Part shown: piece by piece, positions 4,820 through 43,753 of the stretch
Numbering within the stretch: the first letter of the stretch is position 1
How the letters are laid out: every line of letters begins with the position of its first letter
Assembly: GCF_003430825.1 (NCBI RefSeq)
Contig: NZ_CP024047.1
Span: forward strand, 2,852,001-2,916,000
Origin: Natrarchaeobaculum sulfurireducens
Lineage (GTDB): Archaea; Halobacteriota; Halobacteria; Halobacteriales; Natrialbaceae
DNA length: 64,000 bases
Direction: 5' to 3'
Notes under the pieces: model-generated
Database searches by the model: none
Seen by the model: the letters and a program-made list of their open reading frames with translations, nothing else
Told to the model about the DNA's origin: nothing
Translations under genes and position numbers: made by a program

Positions 4820-6217
4820 ATGCGCCGCTCAATCGTGATCGCGGTCACACTGATCGCCATCGCGTTCGTCCTCATCGGGGGCCCATCGCTGTTGTTCTCG
4901 CCGTCGACGGACGAACTCACACCCGAAGCAGACGACGGCCCCGAGCCCGCTATCATCTCGCTCGAGGACAGCGACAGCGGCTTCTGGCCCTACCTCAACG
5001 CACGCCAGGCCCACGAAAACCGGAGTCCGCTGAACGTCGTCGTGCGGGGCGACGCCAACCAGGTGCTGACGCTGCTGGCCGAACACGGCGACGGTGACTG
5101 GGAGGAAGCCGATCACGATCACTTCGAAGCCGAGGAACTCCTCGAGTTCGGCGACAACGAGACGGACTCGAGGATGGATCCCGACGCTGATCTGGACAAC
5201 GTTTCCAACACGACCGTCGAAGACGTCAGACCGATCTCGCCGACCGACATTCCGTGGTCTGAAGCCGACGGTGCGACGCGATACGCTTACCTCGACCCCG
5301 GCCCGGACGAGGATGGCATCTGGACGACCGAAACACTCCAACTCGAAGATGGCGAGTACTACGGCTACCGGTACCATATCCGCGCCTACGAGAGCCCGAA
5401 CCCCGACGACGAGTGGGTCGTGATGCAGACCCACTCCGAGCACTTCGACTGGCTCACCCTCCGTCACCGCGTCGACGGCGTCGAAGGAGCCCAACTGCGT
5501 CTCGAGCGCGACCTGATGGCGATTCCCGGTGTCGACGTCCAGGAGGACGTCCAGCGGCTCTACCTCGACAACAGCGGCCCCTCCGATGCCGACGGGTGGG
5601 CGACCAAGGTCGATCTCACCGCAATGGCGCTTGCACCTCTCGCTCTGGGACTTGCGGCGCGGCGCGACCGCGAGATCCACGCCGAGAGTGCAGGCCTCCT
5701 CGAGCGCGCCAGCGGAGAGGTCGACGACCGACTCAACGAGGGAGAGCGCGCCCGACTTGCGGCCGTTGCCGACCGACTCGAGGCGCGCCACCTGATCCTC
5801 GCGGGAACGATCCTCGCGATCATCCTCGGCGTCCGCATCGCCGGTATCGCGCTGGATCGCACGGTCGATATGCTGACTGTCCACATGATCGCTGGCCTGC
5901 TCTACCCCGTCATCGCCGTGGGAGTACCCGTCGCGACCTACGCCATCGCCAACGGCCTCGAGAGCCGCATCGACGCTGCTGTCGCTGCGTCTACCTCGCT
6001 CGCTGTCGCGATCTGGCTCGATTACAGCCTGCTAGGCGTCGACGTCCTCCCGGTCGACGTCGTCGTCCAGCGTGCGCTCGTCGTCGTCGCCCTGGGGCTC
6101 ATCGCTGGCGGTGCAGCCCGGCGAGCGACCCGCAACTCGAGGCTCAACGACATGCTGGTCGCTGGCGTTGGACTGTGGGTGGTGGTGCTGGTCGGGACCC
6201 TGTTTGGCTACCTGTAG
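4820..6217 (+). CDS. Multi-pass membrane protein with a large N-terminal extracytoplasmic domain (unknown function)
   Basis: The 465-residue protein starts with one membrane helix (about 5-30: IVIAVTLIAIAFVLIGGPSLL). A roughly 230-residue acidic hydrophilic domain follows and is probably outside the cell. About five or six membrane helices end the protein (for example around LILAGTILAIILGVRIAGIAL and MLVAGVGLWVVVLVGTLFGYL). A charged cytoplasmic-looking segment (LLERASGEVDDRLNEGERARL) sits after the first C-terminal helix. I do not recognise the family. The gene stands alone, with its own upstream region after the stress protein, and the dpp operon follows after a 170-base gap. Confidence 0.7.
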   Translation: MRRSIVIAVTLIAIAFVLIGGPSLLFSPSTDELTPEADDGPEPAIISLEDSDSGFWPYLNARQAHENRSPLNVVVRGDANQVLTLLAEHGDGDWEEADHDHFEAEELLEFGDNETDSRMDPDADLDNVSNTTVEDVRPISPTDIPWSEADGATRYAYLDPGPDEDGIWTTETLQLEDGEYYGYRYHIRAYESPNPDDEWVVMQTHSEHFDWLTLRHRVDGVEGAQLRLERDLMAIPGVDVQEDVQRLYLDNSGPSDADGWATKVDLTAMALAPLALGLAARRDREIHAESAGLLERASGEVDDRLNEGERARLAAVADRLEARHLILAGTILAIILGVRIAGIALDRTVDMLTVHMIAGLLYPVIAVGVPVATYAIANGLESRIDAAVAASTSLAVAIWLDYSLLGVDVLPVDVVVQRALVVVALGLIAGGAARRATRNSRLNDMLVAGVGLWVVVLVGTLFGYL

Positions 6218-6389: not shown

Positions 6390-8024
6390 ATGCGCACGAA
6401 TTCGCGCCGATCATTCCTCCGATCGGTTGGGGCAGCAGGTGCTGTTGGGACGGCCGCCCTCGCAGGGTGTGTTGGGGTTGACGACGGGGCAGACGAAGAC
6501 CTCGGAGAGCCCGTACCGGAGATCCAGTTCGTCTTCCAGACTGCTGGAGCGAGTCCGGACCGAAACGAACTCGGCAATCTCATCGCGGATAACTTCGAGG
6601 CAGTCGGCTTCGAAGTCGACCGCCAGGAACGTGAGTTCGATCCGGCCGTCCAGCAGACCGTCGTCGAACAGGACTTCGACGTCTCGCTTCTCGGGTGGGG
6701 TGGAACGCCAGAGCGGATCGATCCGCACATCTTCCTGACGGACATGCACCACTCGGATTACACTGAAGAAGGGGGACGGAACACGCCAGGTTACGAGAAT
6801 CCCGACTACGACGAACTCGCGGAAGCGCAGGCTCGAGAGGTCGACGAGGATGCTCGACGCGAACTCGTCTTCGAGGCACAGGCGATGCTCTCGGAAGATC
6901 AGCCGCGCTGTTACATCGCAAACGAGGGTGGAGACCACCCATACAACGCCGAGCGACTCGACAGCGTGAACCCGACGTTGGGCGAGGGACTCAACGGCTT
7001 CTGGAACTTCATGGAACTGGAGCCGGCCGACGGCGTCAATGAGGTGTCGTTCGGCTACGGAGCCGACATCATCTCGCTGAACCCGATGCAGGATATGGCC
7101 ACGCCGGACCGACAGTTTATCCGGCTCATCTACGACCAGCTCTATCGCTTCGGTGAGGACGGCGATCCGGTTCCGTGGCTGGCGGTCGACGAACCGGAGA
7201 TCTCCGACGACGGGACTATGTTCACTGTCGAGATCCGCGAGGGCCACACGTTCCACGACGGCGAAGACGTGACAGTCGACGATGTCGCGTTCTCGTTCGA
7301 TCTCTTTTACGAGCACTCCCCGACGTACCAAGCGTACCTCGATGGGATCGAAGAGATAGAGACCAGCGGAAACGAGATCACGTTCCACCTCGAGGAACCC
7401 GACGCGACGTTCATCAGTAACGCGCTGGCTCAGATCTACGTCTTCCCCGAACACATCTGGTCCGAGATCCACGACCCCACGGAACAGGGAGACGACGACT
7501 ACATCGGGAGCGGCCCGTTCGAGTTCGAAGACTGGGAGCGCGAGGTCGAGCTGCAACTGGGCAGGTTCGACGACCACTTCCAGCCGCCGAACGTCAGCAG
7601 ACTCATCCGCATTCCCGGCGACGCTGGCACGTTGGTCGATCAGATCGAGGCTCACGAGATCGACATGTTCGGTAACGAGCCGACGCCGACGCAGGCCGAA
7701 CGGATCGCTGACGACCCGGACCTGGGTCTGGCCACCTTCCAAGACGTCGGCCACGTGAAACTGGCGTACAACATGCGCCGGGATCACATGGACGATCCAC
7801 ACCTCCGACGAGCGATGTCCTACTGTGTCCCCAAAGAGACCTTCGTCGAGGACATCCGTGGCGGGATGGGAACGGTGACCCACTCACCGATCTCCGAGGC
7901 AGTCGAAAACTGGCACAACCCCGACGTAGAGCAGTACACCGAAGACCTCGAGGCTGCCGAAGAGGAACTCGAGGCCGGTGGCTACGAGCGAGGAAGCGAC
8001 GGCAAGCTGTACTACGCAGAGTAA
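6390..8024 (+). CDS. Family-5 (Dpp/Opp) substrate-binding lipoprotein with circularly permuted domain order
   Basis: This 544-residue protein would capture peptides or similar solutes outside the cell for the permease encoded downstream. It has a twin-arginine signal (SRRSFLR, 5-11) and a lipobox ending at Cys27 (TAALAGC). Residues about 44-212 match the part that is normally C-terminal in this family: strand, helix LGNLIADNFEAVGFEV, then LLGWGGTPERIDPHIF, the GYENPDYDELAEAQ segment and a closing QPRCYIAN. Residues about 215-544 match the part that is normally N-terminal: LNPMQDM, YDQLYRFG, VPWLA, the HTFHDGEDVTVDDVAFS signature, GSGPFEF, and the LRRAMSYCVPKETFVEDI and ELEAGGY segments. It stops exactly where the usual C-lobe would begin. 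The paralogue at 40552-42333 has the normal order. Confidence 0.85.
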   Translation: MRTNSRRSFLRSVGAAGAVGTAALAGCVGVDDGADEDLGEPVPEIQFVFQTAGASPDRNELGNLIADNFEAVGFEVDRQEREFDPAVQQTVVEQDFDVSLLGWGGTPERIDPHIFLTDMHHSDYTEEGGRNTPGYENPDYDELAEAQAREVDEDARRELVFEAQAMLSEDQPRCYIANEGGDHPYNAERLDSVNPTLGEGLNGFWNFMELEPADGVNEVSFGYGADIISLNPMQDMATPDRQFIRLIYDQLYRFGEDGDPVPWLAVDEPEISDDGTMFTVEIREGHTFHDGEDVTVDDVAFSFDLFYEHSPTYQAYLDGIEEIETSGNEITFHLEEPDATFISNALAQIYVFPEHIWSEIHDPTEQGDDDYIGSGPFEFEDWEREVELQLGRFDDHFQPPNVSRLIRIPGDAGTLVDQIEAHEIDMFGNEPTPTQAERIADDPDLGLATFQDVGHVKLAYNMRRDHMDDPHLRRAMSYCVPKETFVEDIRGGMGTVTHSPISEAVENWHNPDVEQYTEDLEAAEEELEAGGYERGSDGKLYYAE

Positions 8025-8284: not shown

Positions 8285-9265
8285 ATGGGACTGAGAGAGT
8301 ACATCGTCCGCCGTATTCTCCAGCTCGTCTTTACGCTGTGGGCGTTCGTCACGCTCCTGTTCGTACTGTTCCGGATGGTGCCTGGCGATCCGACGACGCG
8401 GTTCGTCATGGAGTATCCAACGCCGGAAGCGCGAGAACAACGAATCGAAGAGCTCGGGCTCAACGAGCCGCTGTACGTCCAGTATTTCGAGTACCTGGGC
8501 CAACTGTTGCGAGGTGAGTTCGGCGACTCGACTCACTACCGAGAGCCGGTGAGTGAACTCATCTTCCCGCTGTTTCTCAACACGGTCGTTCTCATGTTCA
8601 CCGCGTTGATCATCGCCTACACGTTCGGCGTGCTCTTCGGCGCGGCCATGGGATGGCTGCGAGGCAGTCGCTTCGAGCGTGGTGGCATCGTCCTCACGCT
8701 CGTCGCTCGCTCCTCGCCCGAGTTCTGGATCGGCGTCATCCTGGTCTGGATCTTCGTCTTCCAGCTCGGGGTCCTCCCCCGGAGTGGGATCGGCGCTCAC
8801 GGCGGCGAGTTGACCATGAACGTCGTCGACCGATACGCCAACGTCGACTTCCTCCGGCACCTGATCCTGCCCGCGTTGACGGGGGCGATCTACTACATGG
8901 CGACGCCCGCCCTGCTGATGCGAAACACCATGCTCGAGGTCCTGAAAGCCGACTTCATCGAGATCAAGAAAGCCGAGGGCCTGCCCGAGCGAACGGTGTT
9001 GTACAAACACGCCGCCCGCAACTCCGTGTTGCCACTCGTGACCGTCGTCGCGATCGCAACCGGTGCCGCGATGGGCGGATCGGTCATCATCGAGACCGTC
9101 TTCAACTGGCCAGGGATCGGCCGTGAGATGGTCGCCTCGGTGACCAGAAACGACTATCCGGTCGCGATGGCGGCGTTTTTCCTCATGGGAACTGCCGTGA
9201 TCGTAATGAATTTCGTCGCCGACCTGGCGTACCTCTATCTCGACCCACGGGTGAAATACGAATGA
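8285..9265 (+). CDS. Peptide/solute ABC transporter permease (DppB type)
   Basis: The 326-residue integral membrane permease has the classic DppB layout. A short cytoplasmic start precedes the first membrane helix (RILQLVFTLWAFVTLLFVLF), followed by RMVPGDP. The extracytoplasmic loop carries LGLNEPLYVQYFEYL, and about five more helices follow. The ATPase-contact EAA-type loop is seen at ADFIEIKKAEGLPERTVLYK and RNSVLPLVT. The start at 8285 follows a GGAAGGAGA ribosome-binding site. A 260-base gap separates it from the binding-protein gene, and its end overlaps the next permease by ATGA, showing translational coupling. With the DppC partner it forms the membrane channel. Confidence 0.9.
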   Translation: MGLREYIVRRILQLVFTLWAFVTLLFVLFRMVPGDPTTRFVMEYPTPEAREQRIEELGLNEPLYVQYFEYLGQLLRGEFGDSTHYREPVSELIFPLFLNTVVLMFTALIIAYTFGVLFGAAMGWLRGSRFERGGIVLTLVARSSPEFWIGVILVWIFVFQLGVLPRSGIGAHGGELTMNVVDRYANVDFLRHLILPALTGAIYYMATPALLMRNTMLEVLKADFIEIKKAEGLPERTVLYKHAARNSVLPLVTVVAIATGAAMGGSVIIETVFNWPGIGREMVASVTRNDYPVAMAAFFLMGTAVIVMNFVADLAYLYLDPRVKYE

Positions 9266-10227
9266 GTCTCGAGACCGCTACTGCTGACGACGACTCGCTA
9301 GACCGACGCAAACTTCGCTGGCAGCGCCGCCTCGAGGCGCTTCGCAACTGGGCAGGCGTCCTGAAAGAAGACCGAATGGGCCAGACAGGGATCGCCATCC
9401 TGGCAGTGTTTTTCTTCATCGGGATTTTCGCCCGACCGATCGAAATCTCGGTCGGCCCCGTCTGGGCGACGGTCCAGCCGTTCTCGCTTGCACCCTACGA
9501 GCCCGGTGCTCGGGTCGCCGGAACAGGGCTCCAGGGCCCCTCGTGGGACCACCCGCTCGGAACGACGGCGCTCGGCCGGGACGTCCTGTCTCAACTCCTC
9601 GCCGCGACGCGAGTGACGCTGATCGTCGGCATCGTCGCGGCGTTCATGGCCGTCTTCATCGGCGCGAACGTCGGCATCATCAGCGCCTACTACGGCGGCT
9701 GGGTCGACGACATCCTGATGCGAATTACCGACGTCGTCTACGGCGTTCCGTTCTTGCCCTTCGCTATCGCGCTGGTGTTCATCATCGGTGCCAGCCTGGT
9801 CAACGTCATCTTTGCGATCGTGTTGATCCTCTGGCGCGGCACCGCACGTGTCGTCCGGTCACAGGTACTGAGTCACAAACAACGGCCGTACGTCGAGAGC
9901 GCCCGAGCGATCGGCGCAAGCGACTTTCGGATCATGTACGTCCAGATCATGCCGAACGTCCTGCCACTGATCTCGCTGTACGCCGCCTTCGCGGTGGCGT
10001 GGGCGGTGATCGCCGAGGCGAGTCTCTCGTTCCTCGGGCTGGGCCCACCGGGAATGATCTCCTGGGGCGAGATGATCTACGACGTCCGGAGCGCCGGTGC
10101 ACTCCGCGAGGCGTGGTGGTGGGTGTTCCCACCTGGCATCGCCATCATGCTGTTCGTGATGTCGGTGTTCTTCATCGGCCGCTCGCTCGAGAAAGTAGTC
10201 AACCCCGAACTGCGCCACTCCAAGTAA
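9262..10227 (+). CDS. Peptide/solute ABC transporter permease (DppC type)
   Basis: The second permease subunit has 321 residues. A charged N-terminal cytoplasmic segment leads to the first helix (IAILAVFFFIGIFARPI). The DppC-specific loop is present (HPLGTTALGRDVLSQLL), then helices and the ATPase-contact loop VESARAIGASDFRIMYVQIMPN. It ends with SLSFLGLGPPGMISWGEM and a last helix. It overlaps dppB by four bases and precedes the first ATPase by four bases, so the four membrane and ATPase genes form one tight operon. Confidence 0.9.
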   Translation: MSLETATADDDSLDRRKLRWQRRLEALRNWAGVLKEDRMGQTGIAILAVFFFIGIFARPIEISVGPVWATVQPFSLAPYEPGARVAGTGLQGPSWDHPLGTTALGRDVLSQLLAATRVTLIVGIVAAFMAVFIGANVGIISAYYGGWVDDILMRITDVVYGVPFLPFAIALVFIIGASLVNVIFAIVLILWRGTARVVRSQVLSHKQRPYVESARAIGASDFRIMYVQIMPNVLPLISLYAAFAVAWAVIAEASLSFLGLGPPGMISWGEMIYDVRSAGALREAWWWVFPPGIAIMLFVMSVFFIGRSLEKVVNPELRHSK

Positions 10228-10231
10228 CACA

Positions 10232-11284
10232 ATGACGCTACTCACAATCGACGGTTTGCAGATGTACTACCGGAGCGAGGCAGGATACGTCCGCGCCGCC
10301 GACGACATCAACATCGAACTCGAGCGCGGACAGACGCTCGGACTCGTCGGCGAGAGCGGCTCCGGAAAGACGACTATCGCCCGCTCGATCATCCGGCTGT
10401 TGCCGGACAACGCCGAGGTCGTCGACGGATCGATCGACTTCGACGGCACGGACATCACCGAACTCACCGACCGGGAACTGCGCAACCAGATCCGATGGCA
10501 GGAGGTATCGATGATCCCGCAGAACGCGATGAACGGCTTCGACCCGGTCTACACCGTCGGCCAACAGATCGTTCAGGTTATCAGACACCACGAAGACGGC
10601 GTCTCGAAAGCCGAGGCGAAAGACCGCGCCAGATCGCTGTTCGACGAACTCGGCATCGATCCCGACCGTGTCGATGACTATCCCCACCAGTTCTCCGGCG
10701 GGATGGCCCAGCGGGCGATGATCGCACTGGCACTGTGTCTCGAGCCGCGGCTGATCCTCGCTGACGAGCCGACGACGGCACTGGACGTGGTGATCCAAGA
10801 CCGCATCCTCGATACGATCAAAGAGATGCAAGCGGAGTACGACAGCGCGATGATCCTGATCACCCACGACATCTCGGTGGTCAGCGAGACCTCCGATCGG
10901 ATCGCCGTCTGCTACGGCGGCCGGATCGTCGAGCAGGCCGACGCGGCCACGATCATCAAGAACCCCCGTCACCCCTACACGCTCGGACTGCGCAACGCAT
11001 TTCCCGACATCGCAGATTCCGACGAGGACCTCATCTCGATTCCGGGAACGCCACCCGAACTCGTCGACCCCGGTGAGGGCTGTCGATTCGCGCCTCGCTG
11101 TCCGTTCGCAGAAGACGAGTGCTGGGAGGTAACGCCGGAACCCGAAGAGTACGGCGACGGCCATATCGTCGAGTGTCACCGCGCCGACGAGGCCGACGAA
11201 CTCCGCTCGCTCGCCGCAAAGCGAGAGACGTGGATGGGCACCGACGAAGCGAAAACAACGCCGGCACAGGGAGGTGACGACTGA
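10232..11284 (+). CDS. Peptide/solute ABC transporter ATP-binding protein (DppD type)
   Basis: A cytoplasmic ABC ATPase of 350 residues that energises the DppBC channel. It has Walker A (GESGSGKTT, about residue 43), a Q-loop region (VSMIPQNAMNGFDP), the ABC signature FSGGMAQR, Walker B with [13 protein letters not shown], and the switch histidine in LITHDISVV. The C-terminal oligopeptide domain contains the cysteine pattern CRFAPRCPFAEDEC plus a later EC. Its stop overlaps the next gene's start (TGATG). All catalytic motifs are intact. Confidence 0.9.
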   Translation: MTLLTIDGLQMYYRSEAGYVRAADDINIELERGQTLGLVGESGSGKTTIARSIIRLLPDNAEVVDGSIDFDGTDITELTDRELRNQIRWQEVSMIPQNAMNGFDPVYTVGQQIVQVIRHHEDGVSKAEAKDRARSLFDELGIDPDRVDDYPHQFSGGMAQRAMIALALCLEPRLILADEPTTALDVVIQDRILDTIKEMQAEYDSAMILITHDISVVSETSDRIAVCYGGRIVEQADAATIIKNPRHPYTLGLRNAFPDIADSDEDLISIPGTPPELVDPGEGCRFAPRCPFAEDECWEVTPEPEEYGDGHIVECHRADEADELRSLAAKRETWMGTDEAKTTPAQGGDD

Positions 11285-12582
11285 TGTCGCTTACCTCAGA
11301 GACCGAAGAGCACTCAGAGCGGGCCGACGACGCGAAACTCCGGCTCGAGAACCTCGATAAGCATTTTACGGTCAATCAAGGCATCCTCTCGCGAATCCTC
11401 CGCGGGGAGTCCTCTCAGTACGTCCACGCCGTCGACGACGTCACCGTCGAAATCGCCGAGGGAGAAGCATTCGGCTTAGCTGGCGAGTCCGGCTGTGGGA
11501 AGACGACGCTCGGAAAGACCGCGATCAAGTTGACCGAGCCCACGAACGGTCGGATCGTCTTCGACGGCGAGGACGTCACCGACTTAAGCGGCGACGACCT
11601 GAAGGCGTTCCGACGAGAGGCCCAGGTGATCCACCAGAACCCGTACGACTCGATCAACCCCCGATTTACGGTTTACGAGTGGATCGAAGAGCCCCTCATC
11701 GTCCACGGCATCGGGACACCCGAAGAACGCGAAGCTCGCGTCCTCGAGACCCTCGAGATGGCTGGCCTCGAGCCGCCCGAAGCCTACGCCCACGAGTATC
11801 CCACCGAACTCAGCGGTGGTGAACGCCAGCGGGTCGGTATCGCCCGTGCACTGGTACTCGAGCCGTCGTTCCTGCTGGCAGACGAGCCCGCGAGTATGCT
11901 CGACGTCTCGATTCGCGCGAGTATCCTCGACGTGTTCGAGCGGCTCCAGACCGAACTCGGTCTGACGGCGTTGTACATCAGCCACGACCTCTCACTGTTG
12001 AAACACATCTGTGACCGCATCGGGATCATGTACCTCGGCGAACTGGTCGAAGTCGGCCCCGCAGACGAGATCATCGACAATCCCCAGCACCCCTACACGC
12101 AGGCGCTCGTCTCCTCGGTCCCGCGACTCGACCCCGACGTCGACCGCGAGCGAATCGAACTCGTCGGTGAGGTCCCCGACGCCGTCGACGTTCCCAGCGG
12201 CTGTCGCTTCCACCCCCGGTGTCCGAAGCTCGTCCCGCCAGAAGACGTCGACCTCGAGCAAGCCGTCTGGCGAGCCGTCGCCAATCTCCGGCGCGATCTC
12301 CTCGAGGACGACCTCTCGCTGACCGGTGACGAGACACACACCCCTGGCGAGATTCGGGCAGAGTACGGCGTTCCGGACGAGCTTTCCGACCCCCACGTCG
12401 AAGCGGTGCTCTCGGAGGCCCTCGAGGCGTTCGTCGAAACTGAAGACGCGACACTCGACCGACTCCGGGAGGCACTCGAGAGCCCGTGTGAACGCGGCTC
12501 GATCCCGACGTATCAGGCCACCGACGTCCAGCGCTCGCAGTGTCTGTTACACGACCCCGACGGGCCATATCGGGCCGGGTGA
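11284..12582 (+). CDS. Peptide/solute ABC transporter ATP-binding protein (DppF type) with extended C-terminus
   Basis: This is the second ATPase of the operon, 432 residues, about 100 longer than usual DppF. Motifs are Walker A (GESGCGKTT), the signature LSGGERQR, Walker B LLADEPASMLDV and the switch YISHDLSLL. The usual C-terminal domain (CRFHPRCPKLVPPE) is interrupted by about 100 acidic, helical residues before the final cysteines (SPCERGS and QCLLHD). It is translationally coupled to the DppD gene by TGATG. Four cysteines remain in the domain, as in relatives that bind an iron-sulfur cluster; that role is inference. The second operon's DppF has a similar insertion. Confidence 0.88.
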   Translation: MSLTSETEEHSERADDAKLRLENLDKHFTVNQGILSRILRGESSQYVHAVDDVTVEIAEGEAFGLAGESGCGKTTLGKTAIKLTEPTNGRIVFDGEDVTDLSGDDLKAFRREAQVIHQNPYDSINPRFTVYEWIEEPLIVHGIGTPEEREARVLETLEMAGLEPPEAYAHEYPTELSGGERQRVGIARALVLEPSFLLADEPASMLDVSIRASILDVFERLQTELGLTALYISHDLSLLKHICDRIGIMYLGELVEVGPADEIIDNPQHPYTQALVSSVPRLDPDVDRERIELVGEVPDAVDVPSGCRFHPRCPKLVPPEDVDLEQAVWRAVANLRRDLLEDDLSLTGDETHTPGEIRAEYGVPDELSDPHVEAVLSEALEAFVETEDATLDRLREALESPCERGSIPTYQATDVQRSQCLLHDPDGPYRAG

Positions 12583-12925: not shown

Positions 12926-13034
12926 GGACGGGCGTGAATCGCGTCACTCAACTACGCGAACCACCGCTCGATAGCGGGCTGGATATTCCACGCTAATCCA
13001 CACCATTAAGTTGATTCATTTACATGGGCTATGT

Positions 13035-14282
13035 ATGGCGATTCAGGTCACGCGCACCTACGTTGGTTCGATCCAGAACCACCGGCAGGTCTGCGATGGC
13101 CTTGACTCGCTCGGAGACTCCGCCTCGAAGATCTGGAATGTCGCACGATGGACAGCCGACCGAATCTGGGATGAGACCGGTGAAATCCCAGACGAGGGTG
13201 TGCTGAAATCGTACATGAAGAACCAGTCGTGCTGGAAAGACCTGAACGCACAATCCAGTCAGAAAGTCATCGAAGAACTTTCTGACGCTTTCCAGTCGTG
13301 GTTCGATCTGCGACAGAAGGATGACGAGGCGAATCCACCCGGCTACCGCAAACACGGCGACACCCGGCCCAAGAGTACGGTTACGTTCAAACCAGACGGG
13401 TTCAAACACGACCCAGAGAACAACCGCGTCCGGCTCAGCAAAGGGTCGAACCTCAAGGAGTACTGGTCAGACTTCATCCTCTGCGAATACCAGACACGCC
13501 CAGATGTTGCCCTCTCGGAAGTCACCAAGGTACAGAACGTTCGAACCGTCTGGAACGGCGACGAGTGGGAGCTGCACTTTGTCTGCAAAGTCGAACTCGA
13601 AACCAGCGACTCCGCAGGCGACGGCGTTGCTGGAATCGACCTTGGGATCAAAAATATTGCCACGGTCGCATTTCCCGACGAATACGTCCTCTACCCCGGC
13701 AACTCGATCAAGCAAGACAAACACTACTTCAAGCGAGCCGAGTACGACACTGCGGGTGAGGGCCCCTCGGAGAAGTCACTGTGGGCACGTCGGAAACTCG
13801 CAGATCGTGAAACGCATTTCTACCACACGCTTACGGACACCATCATTACGGAGTGTGTCGAACGTGGTGTCGGCACGCTCGCGGTGAGTTGGCCTGAAGA
13901 CGTGCGAAACTCAGACTGGGGGAAGAGTGGCAACAAGAAACTCCACACGTGGGCGTTCGACCGCATTTACCAGTCCCTCGAATACAAAGGCGAGATCCGT
14001 GGCATCGAGGTGCTGAAAGAAAATGAATGGAACACCTCGAAAACGTGTTCAGCGTGTGGTGACGACACGAAGTCGAACCGGAAGCATCGTGGATTGTACG
14101 TCTGTTCGTCGTGTGAGTTGGTAGCCAACGCCGATTGTAACGGGGCGGAGAACATGAGACAGAAGATAACTCCGAGTCCTCACGGTGAGGATAGGAGTAA
14201 CGGCTGTGTGGCACAGCCATCGGTACACCTGTTCGACCGCGAGAGCGGGTCGTTCAAAACGAGAGAACAGGTCGTATCGTAG
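13035..14282 (+). CDS. Solo TnpB-family (IS1341-type) RNA-guided nuclease-like protein with altered RuvC motif II
   Basis: The 415-residue TnpB/OrfB protein has an N-terminal helical region, a RuvC-like core and a zinc finger (CSACG near 338-342, CSSCE near 357-361). RuvC motif I is intact (GIDLGIKN, Asp202), as is motif III (NADCNGAENM, Asp367). In motif II the glutamate usually seen in a VxEDL setting aligns with Ser285 in TLAVSWPEDV. The nearest glutamate, Glu288, is three residues later, so full nuclease activity is uncertain. Start 13035 (MAIQVTRTYVGS) replaces an upstream ATG at 13011. There is no TnpA nearby. A structured RNA-like 3' region follows directly. It sits 450 bases after a transporter operon, a setting reminiscent of transporter-linked nuclease-dead TnpB relatives. 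Confidence 0.85.
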   Translation: MAIQVTRTYVGSIQNHRQVCDGLDSLGDSASKIWNVARWTADRIWDETGEIPDEGVLKSYMKNQSCWKDLNAQSSQKVIEELSDAFQSWFDLRQKDDEANPPGYRKHGDTRPKSTVTFKPDGFKHDPENNRVRLSKGSNLKEYWSDFILCEYQTRPDVALSEVTKVQNVRTVWNGDEWELHFVCKVELETSDSAGDGVAGIDLGIKNIATVAFPDEYVLYPGNSIKQDKHYFKRAEYDTAGEGPSEKSLWARRKLADRETHFYHTLTDTIITECVERGVGTLAVSWPEDVRNSDWGKSGNKKLHTWAFDRIYQSLEYKGEIRGIEVLKENEWNTSKTCSACGDDTKSNRKHRGLYVCSSCELVANADCNGAENMRQKITPSPHGEDRSNGCVAQPSVHLFDRESGSFKTREQVVS

Positions 14283-40551: not shown

Positions 40552-42333
40552 TTACTGCTCGGCCTCGATCTCCCATCGATGGACGTCGTATCCCCACGCG
40601 ATGCTCGGTTCCTCGGTGGGATCGACGTGGTGGCGATAGCCGTTCAGGTCCTCAGGGAAGTAGAGGAACATCCAGGGTTGTTCCTCGCTCAAGATCCCGA
40701 ACGCTTCCGCCAGCGTGCGCTGTCGTTCGTCCTGATCCGGCGTTGTGGCGGCTTCCGAAAGCATGTCCGCGACGCCTTCGGGATCGTCGTAGCCATAGCC
40801 GTTCACGGACTCACCAGGTCGCCAGAAGCCTTCCGTTGCCTCCGGCGCACGTGGATAGGAGTTTCGGCCGATGCCAGCCATGAAGTCCCACTCGCGGGAG
40901 TCGCCCGGTTCGGCGTACAGATAGTCGTCGAGCATGGTGTTCCACGGGACGGGATCGAGTTCGACCTCGAGACCGAGGTTCTCGTCGAGTTCGTCCTGGA
41001 TGAATCGTGCTACCAGCTCGGTGTCGTCTGCACTATCGGAGAAGACGTAGTTGAGGACGACTTCCTCGCCGTCGGCGTCGACGAGGCGACCGTCGTCGTA
41101 GCCGTATCCGTCCGGAAGGTTGTTCTCGAACCGGTCGCGGGCACCGTCCGGATCGTACTCCCATTCGGCGACCTCGGAATCGTCGTAGAAGTCGGAGTAC
41201 TCCGGTGAAAGCGTATGCGCAACCGTGCCGTAGCCGTACTGGATGTCGTCGACGATCGACTGGCGGTCGACGGCCATCGTGATCGCCTGGCGCACCTCCG
41301 GAATATCGAGGGCCTCCCAGCCGTCGTCTCGCATGTTGTAGAACATGCTCTGACAGTAGACCGTCGGCGTGCTGATGACCTGCACGTCGTCCATCCCGTC
41401 GAACTCTTCGGCACGACGTGCAGGGATACCGGCGGCAGTGATTTCACCCGCCTGAATCGCCGATAGCCGGGTCGACTCCTCGCCCATAACCTCATAGGTC
41501 CACTCGTCGATGTGCGGGGAGTCCTCGTGACCCTCGTAGTTGCGCAGGTAGTAGTCGTCGCTGCGCGGAGCGTACATGCGGGCTTCGGTCTCGAGGACTT
41601 CGACGGTGAACGCGCCGAGGTTCCCCGTGTAACTCAGTTCCTGAATCTCGTCGTCCTCGTTGAGTCCCTCGCCGTCCCGGTCCTCGACGTACGGCTCGGC
41701 GAGCTCCCGCGGAACAACCTCCTGAAAGCCCCAGAGGATCGGTTCCTCGAGGAAGCCGGGGAACGGTTCGGGCATCTCGACGGTGAACTCGTAGTCGCCG
41801 GTCTGTTCGACGTTGAACCAGGCCTGTTCGCCGTCCTCGTCGGCTGCCTCGAAGCCGTCGGGGACCGCATCGACGGGCATTCGCCAGTCATCGGCCATCG
41901 AGACTGCAGCCCAGTTGTCCTCTCCCTGGATGATCTCGGTGATCGAGTACACCCAGTCGTCGGCAGTCATCTCGCCATAGGGCTCAGACCACTCGCCGTA
42001 CTCGGTGAGCGTGAACGTCCACTCGGTGAAGTCGTCGTTGACCTCGTAGTCGCGGACGAGTCGTGGGACGAACTCGTCGTTCTCATCGAACGCATACGCA
42101 GGGTCCATGACCCGGGTGACGCGGTCGCCCGACGTCGTATCCGTAATCCGGAAGACGTTGTAGTTGGGCGCTTCGCTTCCTTGAGCCCCGATCCAATGGT
42201 TTCCATCACCGGTATCGTCACCGGCGGCTGGTGCGTCATCAGAACAGCCAGCCAGGAGTGCGGCCCCACCGGCTATCGTCGACTTCAGCACCGTTCGCCT
42301 GTTGATACCGTCCGTCACGTTTTCGGAAGTCAC
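40552..42333 (-). CDS. Family-5 (Dpp/Opp) substrate-binding lipoprotein, normal domain order
   Basis: The 593-residue binding lipoprotein has a Tat signal (RRTVLK) and a lipobox ending at Cys30 (ALLAGC). The domain order is canonical. The N-lobe opens with YNVFRITDTT, FVPRLVRDYEV and the WTFTLTEYGEWSEP region. The conserved VRQAITMAVDRQSIVDDI follows, and the C-lobe (RFIQDELDENLGLEVELDPV) comes at the end. It is the first gene of the second operon, opposite in order to the permuted protein at 6390-8024. Extracytoplasmic capture of peptides or related solutes is the family role; the ligand is unknown. Confidence 0.88.
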   Translation of the reverse strand: MTSENVTDGINRRTVLKSTIAGGAALLAGCSDDAPAAGDDTGDGNHWIGAQGSEAPNYNVFRITDTTSGDRVTRVMDPAYAFDENDEFVPRLVRDYEVNDDFTEWTFTLTEYGEWSEPYGEMTADDWVYSITEIIQGEDNWAAVSMADDWRMPVDAVPDGFEAADEDGEQAWFNVEQTGDYEFTVEMPEPFPGFLEEPILWGFQEVVPRELAEPYVEDRDGEGLNEDDEIQELSYTGNLGAFTVEVLETEARMYAPRSDDYYLRNYEGHEDSPHIDEWTYEVMGEESTRLSAIQAGEITAAGIPARRAEEFDGMDDVQVISTPTVYCQSMFYNMRDDGWEALDIPEVRQAITMAVDRQSIVDDIQYGYGTVAHTLSPEYSDFYDDSEVAEWEYDPDGARDRFENNLPDGYGYDDGRLVDADGEEVVLNYVFSDSADDTELVARFIQDELDENLGLEVELDPVPWNTMLDDYLYAEPGDSREWDFMAGIGRNSYPRAPEATEGFWRPGESVNGYGYDDPEGVADMLSEAATTPDQDERQRTLAEAFGILSEEQPWMFLYFPEDLNGYRHHVDPTEEPSIAWGYDVHRWEIEAEQ

Positions 42334-42517: not shown

Positions 42518-43753
42518 TCAAGACGCATACGCTCCAAGCGTCAATTCCTGGGCTTCAGCATCGGCTTGGCTGTCTTGTGGGCCGGTCAAACGGCCCCCTT
42601 CCTCAGCCGAGTCATCGTCATCCGTGTGTTCTCTTGAAAGACTCTCTCCGCTGAGGTAGCGGTCTGCAATGTTGAGCGCGGCGTTGATGTCCGCGTGGGA
42701 CTCCGAAACCCAACACTCCAAATTGGAACACTTGAACGTTGCTTGATCGGGGCGGTAGCCCTGTTCTCCGCAACAGTGGCACGTCTTCGAGGTGTACGCG
42801 GGATTCACCGTCTCCACGCGAATCCCTTTCTCGGCGGCTTTGTAGCGGAGTTGGGCGTGCATCTTCGCAAAGCCCCATCCGTGCAAGCGCCGGTTCATGA
42901 ACGCGCCGTAGTCCATGCTCTCGCGGATATGCGTGAGGTCTTCGAGGACCAACACGGGATTCTCGAATTGGTCGGCGTAGGCGACGACCTCCGATGTGAC
43001 CGTGTGGAGAATGCCGTCTATCTGCCGCCAAAGCGAATCGCCGTAGGACTTTGCGATACGTTCACTCCCACGTTGCTGAAGGCGTCGAGTCGCCGTGAAG
43101 TACGTCTCACGGAGCCGCCGAACCTGTTTGCCTTCGTCGTTCCAAAGGTTGGGTGTAGCCGGGGAGCCGCGCTCGTCACGGTGACACACCGTTAACAAAG
43201 AGGCTTCCCCGATGTCTACCCCAATCGGCGTTTCGTCCGCCGAACTGGATCGTTCCTCCACGTCCCGCGTTGCGACGACGTGCAAGTACCACTCGCCGTC
43301 ACGGTCGAACAGCCGACACTCGCCCATCTTCGCGTCCCTCGCGTGCAACGCTTCCAGCCACTCTCGCTGTTCGGGGTTCGGTTGCGCGGGGAGCCACAGG
43401 TTGTAGTCGTCGTGATGCGGGATTTTGACGTACCACTCGATGGCGTTCTGTGGCTTGTGGTCGAGCTTCGGGCCTTCGTTCGTGAACCGAACCGGGTGGT
43501 CGTCGTGAAGCTCCTTCGCGTCGTAGCTTCCACCACAGAGTTGCGGGACATACTTCTTGAGGGCGTTCTTCGCGTACCCAGAAAGGTCGTAGTTGACCAC
43601 CACGTCGTTCGCTTCGGTCTGAGTGGTGCAGTTTGCGTTAAACGCGGCTTCGAGGGCGTCTTGGTACGCTCGTTTCGTCTCACAGAGTTTGCGGTGCTTG
43701 TGGGCATTCGGCTCCACAAGCTTGAGTTCCAGCGTCTCGGTGAGTTCGGTCAT
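42518..43753 (-). CDS. tnpB: TnpB, RNA-guided nuclease of the IS200/IS605 element
   Basis: The 411-residue TnpB has an N-terminal helical region and a RuvC core with all three catalytic acids: Asp180 (GVDIGEASL), Glu271 (LVLEDLTHI) and Asp355 (SHADINAALNIA). A zinc finger is present (CHCCGEQG near 325-332, CSNLEC near 342-347). It is followed by an acidic, glutamine-rich C-terminus. The intact catalytic set contrasts with the solo TnpB at 13035-14282. The start overlaps the tnpA stop by four bases. It probably cuts DNA guided by the omega-RNA transcribed from the element's right end. Confidence 0.9.
   Translation of the reverse strand: MTELTETLELKLVEPNAHKHRKLCETKRAYQDALEAAFNANCTTQTEANDVVVNYDLSGYAKNALKKYVPQLCGGSYDAKELHDDHPVRFTNEGPKLDHKPQNAIEWYVKIPHHDDYNLWLPAQPNPEQREWLEALHARDAKMGECRLFDRDGEWYLHVVATRDVEERSSSADETPIGVDIGEASLLTVCHRDERGSPATPNLWNDEGKQVRRLRETYFTATRRLQQRGSERIAKSYGDSLWRQIDGILHTVTSEVVAYADQFENPVLVLEDLTHIRESMDYGAFMNRRLHGWGFAKMHAQLRYKAAEKGIRVETVNPAYTSKTCHCCGEQGYRPDQATFKCSNLECWVSESHADINAALNIADRYLSGESLSREHTDDDDSAEEGGRLTGPQDSQADAEAQELTLGAYAS

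Follow-up and report, generated by a model that had tools for sequence, protein, structure and literature searches.

A naturally circularly permuted family-5 substrate-binding lipoprotein in Natrarchaeobaculum sulfurireducens, and the recurrence of the rearrangement within its family

How can a single open reading frame (ORF) encode both parts of a family-5 substrate-binding protein (SBP) with the part that normally comes last placed at the front, and is this an accident of one genome or a property of the family? The question is raised by the gene at 6390-8024 of the window, i.e. the whole stretch of 64,000 nucleotides of N. sulfurireducens analysed here, whose product was described in the initial annotation as carrying a complete C-lobe ahead of a complete N-lobe (Table 1). 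The exchange is confirmed by phmmer, Pfam and split profiles alike. Among PDB chains, 8efz is matched in exchanged order (query 223-538 to 16-328, query 52-171 to 344-454), as is AppA (1xoc; query 268-538 to 73-351, query 34-177 to 349-487), and DppA (1dpp) likewise gives two matches in swapped order. Searched alone, residues 42-213 find no part of solved family-5 SBPs other than the C-terminal one (8efz 347-454, E 4.5e-6; 4qfk 386-505; 5f1q 388-515). With 213.4 bits, the PF00496 match clears its cut-off of 32.4; it falls into two stretches, of which the principal one aligns residues 260-539 to model positions 2-285, and profile HMMs of the separate halves, a check proposed at the outset, rank the C half ahead of the N half. 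The second SBP_bac_5 gene of the window, said to have the normal order, does have it and serves as internal control. The linear order of family 5, in which the N-terminal two thirds precede the C-terminal third, is not met at 6390-8024; because the C-terminal third comes first, the protein is classed as a permuted variant and not as an ordinary SBP_bac_5 member. It does satisfy the criteria of natural circular permutation, namely two segments from one parent fold, an exchanged order and a single uninterrupted ORF.

Table 1. Features of the permuted gene, its operon and the canonical control (window coordinates)
Feature	Coordinates	Strand	Basis
Circularly permuted SBP_bac_5 (PF00496) substrate-binding lipoprotein, 544 aa	6390..8024	+	ORF, phmmer, Pfam, split profiles
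Twin-arginine signal (SRRSFLR) with lipobox LAGC, predicted lipidated Cys27	6390..6470	+	read from sequence
Residues 42-213, homologue of the canonical SBP C-terminal part (within lobe 2, starting at the beta-hairpin strand and running to the C-terminus)	6513..7028	+	
Residues 102-112, GWGGTPERIDP, binding-cleft loop; DppA equivalent GWTGDNGDP with Asp436 (precursor numbering)	6693..6725	+	alignment
Junction, about residues 208-220, ELEPADGVNEVSF: old C-terminus directly onto old mature N-terminus	7010..7049	+	
Residues 214-544, homologue of the canonical N-terminal two thirds (NPM, HDGE, GSGPF signatures)	7029..8021	+	
New C-terminus GYERGSDGKLYYAE-stop; conserved breakpoint 'AGYxWDxDGxLHYPE' in the hairpin	7980..8024	+	alignments
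ABC permease, OppB/DppB type	8285..9265	+	Pfam; conserved beside orthologues
ABC permease, OppC/DppC type	9262..10227	+	Pfam; conserved beside orthologues
ABC ATPase, OppD/DppD type, oligo_HPY C-terminus	10232..11284	+	Pfam; conserved beside orthologues
ABC ATPase, OppF/DppF type, oligo_HPY C-terminus	11284..12582	+	Pfam; conserved beside orthologues
Second SBP_bac_5 of the window, canonical order (internal control)	40552..42333	-	Pfam and the same half profiles: N before C

A single odd gene is what an assembly or sequencing error, or the fusion of a truncated gene to an unrelated N-terminal domain, would produce, and either outcome had been named beforehand as one that would overturn the proposal. 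Neither materialized: the first 170 residues share ancestry with lobe 2 of SBPs of known structure, and the exchanged order is conserved in dozens of genomes, at 92%, 89%, 76% and lower identity in independent genomes and on complete plasmids. Error or chance fusion is thereby refuted and retains practically no credence. Full-length collinear homologues are 92% and 89% identical in sister species, 76-58% in the same family and about 25-53% elsewhere, and were found in many haloarchaea, Pseudomonadota, Clostridia, Brevibacillus, Alkalispirochaeta and Desulfurococcaceae. Permuted members are encoded in Halobacteria, in Alpha-, Beta- and Gammaproteobacteria (Aliihoeflea, Martelella, Billgrantia, Halomonas, Natronospirillum), in Clostridia (Anoxynatronum, Dethiosulfatibacter), in Brevibacillus reuszeri and Alkalispirochaeta, on contigs labelled Trueperaceae, Desulfobacterales, Bathyarchaeota, Desulfurococcaceae and others, and in plasmid records of Nitratireductor, Maritalea, Roseomonas, Neorhizobium and Ketogulonicigenium, where they are annotated as plain substrate-binding proteins. 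The proposed search of haloarchaea for the same order thus reveals not a unique gene but a member of a large permuted group, widespread in archaea and bacteria and apparently unrecognized.

How reliably can the two architectures be told apart? Half profiles built from permuted proteins recognize DppA, NikA and OppA of E. coli in canonical order and can therefore sort ORFs by architecture. They assign the family-5 ORF entries of the collected loci to 101 permuted and 25 canonical proteins, with 3 unassignable; these are entries and not species, and a few loci overlap or split. Since the loci were gathered with permuted queries, the ratio of 101 to 25 says nothing about the share of either form in nature. 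The Meiothermus, Cytobacillus and Deinococcus plasmid matches, possibly permuted as judged by coverage, proved canonical by the half profiles. Separately, two permuted SBP genes look broken or split in the annotation, one on a Salinigranum rubrum plasmid (L047, 3000-4500) and one in Neorhizobium galegae VafX2 (L041). A search of 293 haloarchaeal genomes (E<=1e-100) gave 17 matches, all collinear with the permuted query, and hence no unpermuted close orthologue of the 6390-8024 gene. The idea of finding the unpermuted ancestor in syntenic genomes consequently failed for this gene, but succeeded for another, independently permuted haloarchaeal SBP family (see below).

Where exactly was the chain opened? 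After rotation, the permuted proteins align with canonical ones straight through the break in an exact fit, canonical GYR..GGVRVGKDGKRLEFTLLV facing permuted GYE..GSDGKLYYAE up to the stop and VPEIQFVFQT beyond it; more generally, canonical '..GY...GG....DGK.L.FTLLV' equals the permuted C-terminus '..AGYxWDxDGxLHYPE-stop' plus the permuted N-terminus 'VPxIxxxxxT'. Because the rotated alignment runs through at that point, the break can be placed in the turn of the hairpin that follows the 'AGY' helix, and the homologues share this one breakpoint inside lobe 2. At the other end, no more than a few linker residues separate the old terminus '..FWNFMELEPA' from the former mature start '..NEVSFGYGADIISLNPM'. 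In DppA, the RRAMSYCV...AGGY stretch, i.e. the 'AGY' helix and the segment preceding it, is already part of lobe 2, so the chain was opened within lobe 2 and not between the lobes. The swap of C-lobe and N-lobe as first described is therefore right as to the exchanged order, but slightly inexact in taking the lobe boundary as the break.

An AlphaFold2 prediction, suggested as a check of the proposal, yielded a confident model from 58 permuted sequences (pLDDT 91, pTM 0.87), with low values only in the signal and tether, and in this model the two lobes are predicted to form one compact fold. The best 50 PDB matches listed by Foldseek are all family-5 SBPs, with E values reaching 8e-18; most align sequentially over ~350 columns, at TM ~0.5. 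Such values fit a permutant, because an aligner that works sequentially is limited to one of the two segments; by the same token, they do not prove a permuted or rotated superposition. None of the 60 best PDB matches listed is a solved chain collinear with the permuted profile.

Does the rearranged protein still work as a transport receptor? It is encoded with Dpp/Opp-type permeases and ATPases, as expected for the family, and the operon of SBP, two permeases and two ATPases is complete here and intact in 5 further genomes examined. A complete and conserved operon makes it most likely that the permuted SBP serves a Dpp/Opp-type importer as its receptor, an inference from genomic context and family. 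By the same inference, and in the absence of structure or binding data, it would close on its ligand and deliver it to the permeases like an ordinary SBP. The exchanged order, its conservation, the shared breakpoint, the operon and the repeated origin of permutation are shown directly; although no experimental structure or binding data exist, we regard it as very probable that 6390-8024 encodes a functional, lipid-anchored SBP of a five-gene Dpp/Opp-type ABC importer with a circularly permuted family-5 fold. Elsewhere around these genes, a 465-residue membrane-protein-like ORF without a Pfam or NCBIfam match lies directly upstream (window 4820-6217, plus strand); a 74% identical copy occurs in another genome (G003), near the orthologous operon but not adjacent to it. 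TnpB-like ORFs (IS200/IS605 type, with zinc finger) lie at 13011-14282 (plus strand) and 42518-43753 (minus strand), one near each SBP operon.

What might the ligand be? In DppA, Arg383 and Asp436 (precursor numbering) are the pair used for peptide termini. This pair is named in the title of PDB entry 8z1z. The equivalents in the 6390-8024 protein are Ala and Thr, so it does not qualify as a DppA-type dipeptide binder, and across 95 permuted rows of the alignment the two positions are mostly Q/A/E and R/T/G. The second is most often Arg within R-xxR-x-DP, read here as T-PER-I-DP, and P112 is nearly invariant among homologues. Because Arg383 and Asp436 are replaced, mostly by an Arg-containing R/T-xxR-x-DP loop, the ligand is probably not bound as a dipeptide is in DppA; that the unidentified ligand of the permuted group may be acidic is a weak inference. 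Flanking genes differ between the orthologues examined, and no substrate is inferred from them. Three alphaproteobacterial operons with permuted SBPs (L040, L041, L042) adjoin M28/M20 peptidase or hydantoinase/oxoprolinase genes, a possible hint at a ligand. Compared with DppA, OppA, AppA and NikZ (SBP_bac_5, cluster C), the protein shares both segments, the Pfam family and the type of operon, but differs in N-to-C order and, with its group, in not retaining DppA's Arg383 and Asp436.

The permutation also has a consequence at the membrane. The RR...AGC motif aligns in most haloarchaeal homologues, and the lipid anchor is inferred to enter lobe 2 instead of lobe 1. Was this shift the reason for which the permutation was selected? 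The lipobox does now precede a lobe-2 strand, and tethering was raised by the authors describing TpMglB-2 as a possible driver of their permutant (PMC4990184); however, canonical haloarchaeal SBPs are tethered too, and Gram-negative homologues are permuted as well, at least one of which (L038) has no lipobox in its N-terminal sequence. An adaptive shift of the tether is for these latter reasons doubtful, and only a small chance is given to it.

Did the arrangement arise only once? Half of the 8 PF00496 genes in the N. sulfurireducens genome are permuted. One of these, at G000:C3:2626369-2628018 (loci L003/L143), has a different breakpoint, about 20-30 residues earlier than that of 6390-8024 and ahead of the helix 'DEAIALVERGLEAAG', and its order is common to orthologues in 7 other genomes (L144-L150). 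A close canonical sister of this second family (L151) reads '...FREEMFEEYGGYDIDEAVELIEEGFDEEGIDAPLDV...' where the permuted proteins stop and start; an AlphaFold2 model of the family, built from 8 sequences only, reached a pLDDT of 66, too low for use. A third haloarchaeal family (L157, L165, L173-L185) is broken just after that helix, ending in 'NEYNVERAEELLEQVAADN-stop' and resuming with 'FPLDVQLEVNADN' after the tether; L156, its canonical relative, shows 64-65% identity to it in each of the two exchanged segments.

It is conceivable that all permuted SBPs descend from one ancient permutation followed by reversals, since the trees cannot orient gain versus loss and permuted and canonical forms interleave in the third family. 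Yet the three groups have three different breakpoints, all solved structures compared here have canonical order, and AU tests (31 rows) reject all permuted proteins as one clade (p 3e-6) as well as the unions P2+P3 (6e-33) and P1+P2 (2e-15), which makes a single permutation very unlikely. A 74-row tree keeps the three permuted groups separate and recovers the 6390-8024 group as one clade (SH-aLRT 97), and the N-half tree agrees on both points; the C-half tree and another tree of smaller size require two changes for the 6390-8024 group, which strong branches do not force. A common origin of the three groups is rejected, and at least three separate swaps have taken place in the family.

The third family deserves separate consideration. 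Among 194 haloarchaeal genomes, it (L157, L165, L173-L199) is permuted in 13 and canonical in 14; each of 8 genomes checked has one copy, and the same downstream permease follows, at more than 40% identity, in 26 of the 27 genomes. Its permuted members do not form one clade (p 3e-4 on the N part and 0.008 on the C part alone, 6e-6 when the two are combined), and one permuted and one canonical protein are fully supported sisters. As the two forms interleave, the order cannot be fixed once gained. The pattern could reflect repeated permutation, reversal or gene conversion between the forms; the common breakpoint speaks for one event with recombination, whereas the trees of both segments speak for several. 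Taken with the three groups, we think it probable that family-5 SBPs were permuted at least three times, at breakpoints within a short stretch of lobe 2, and that a single-copy family switches order more than once between proteins of ~65% identity. If so, family 5 offers a natural series of permutation events of different ages.

By what route does a gene exchange its segments? Under the mechanism inferred here, duplication and fusion would have joined the old C-terminus to the old mature N-terminus through a short linker; the outer parts would then have been lost and the signal peptide retained, reopening the chain at the beta-hairpin that follows the 'AGY' helix in lobe 2. Tandem duplication followed by loss of the outer halves, as already suggested in the initial annotation, is plausible but undemonstrated. 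Neither duplicated intermediates nor leftover halves occur in the collected loci or the third-family flanks, and tblastn found no second partial copy near 6390-8024 in the window. For want of a tandem-duplicate intermediate the route remains an inference, and because the search was limited to the collected sequences it is not excluded either. Alternatively, separate half polypeptides may have been re-fused in the opposite order without any tandem duplication. Fission and fusion is one of the two standard models (PMC3320104), and would give a product of the same appearance, and no duplicated intermediate was detected here; no separate half-genes were detected beside the permuted genes, however, and at the third-family junction the end of the canonical protein and the linker that follows the lipobox at its start are both preserved, as expected from tandem fusion. 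Fission and fusion thus remains possible, if rather unlikely, next to the duplication route. Permutation by duplication is known from saposins/swaposins and DNA methyltransferases (PMC3320104); family 5 would resemble these in its proposed genetic route, and differs in that the event repeats within a short breakpoint region and duplicated intermediates were not found.

How do these findings relate to what is known of SBPs? The nearest precedent is TpMglB-2 (Tp0684), the glucose-binding lipoprotein of Treponema pallidum, a naturally permuted protein termed 'Type Ic / Cluster Bc' (PMC4990184). Like the protein described here, it is a lipid-tethered ligand-binding protein of an ABC system, and it is reported to bind its ligand (PMC4990184). 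It differs in its cluster B (type I) fold, its break in the N-lobe and its sugar ligand, against a family-5 fold opened in lobe 2; the 6390-8024 protein matches family-5 SBPs, both by sequence and in Foldseek, and does not meet the Type Ic / Cluster Bc criterion, by which the first three N-lobe strands have moved to the C-terminus. In family 5, moreover, the permutation recurs within the family. Engineered permuted halves of a Thermotoga ribose-binding protein, laboratory constructs of a type I SBP, are reported to show that pieces of an SBP can fold after rearrangement (PMC9815098). No report of permutation in family-5 SBPs was found in the full-text literature, a search that left subscription literature mostly uncovered. 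The type of rearrangement is accordingly a known one; the family, a very common one, is new for it, and the recurrence is unusual.

Transporters of this family are very common, and the permutation touches a substantial part of them. As members of the family are annotated simply as 'ABC transporter substrate-binding protein', annotation and structure alignment that depend on order capture each permuted protein only in part. Permuted and unpermuted orthologues of ~65% identity in the same operon position constitute closely matched natural pairs, on which it can be tested how permutations arise and whether folding, closure or membrane tethering is altered by them.
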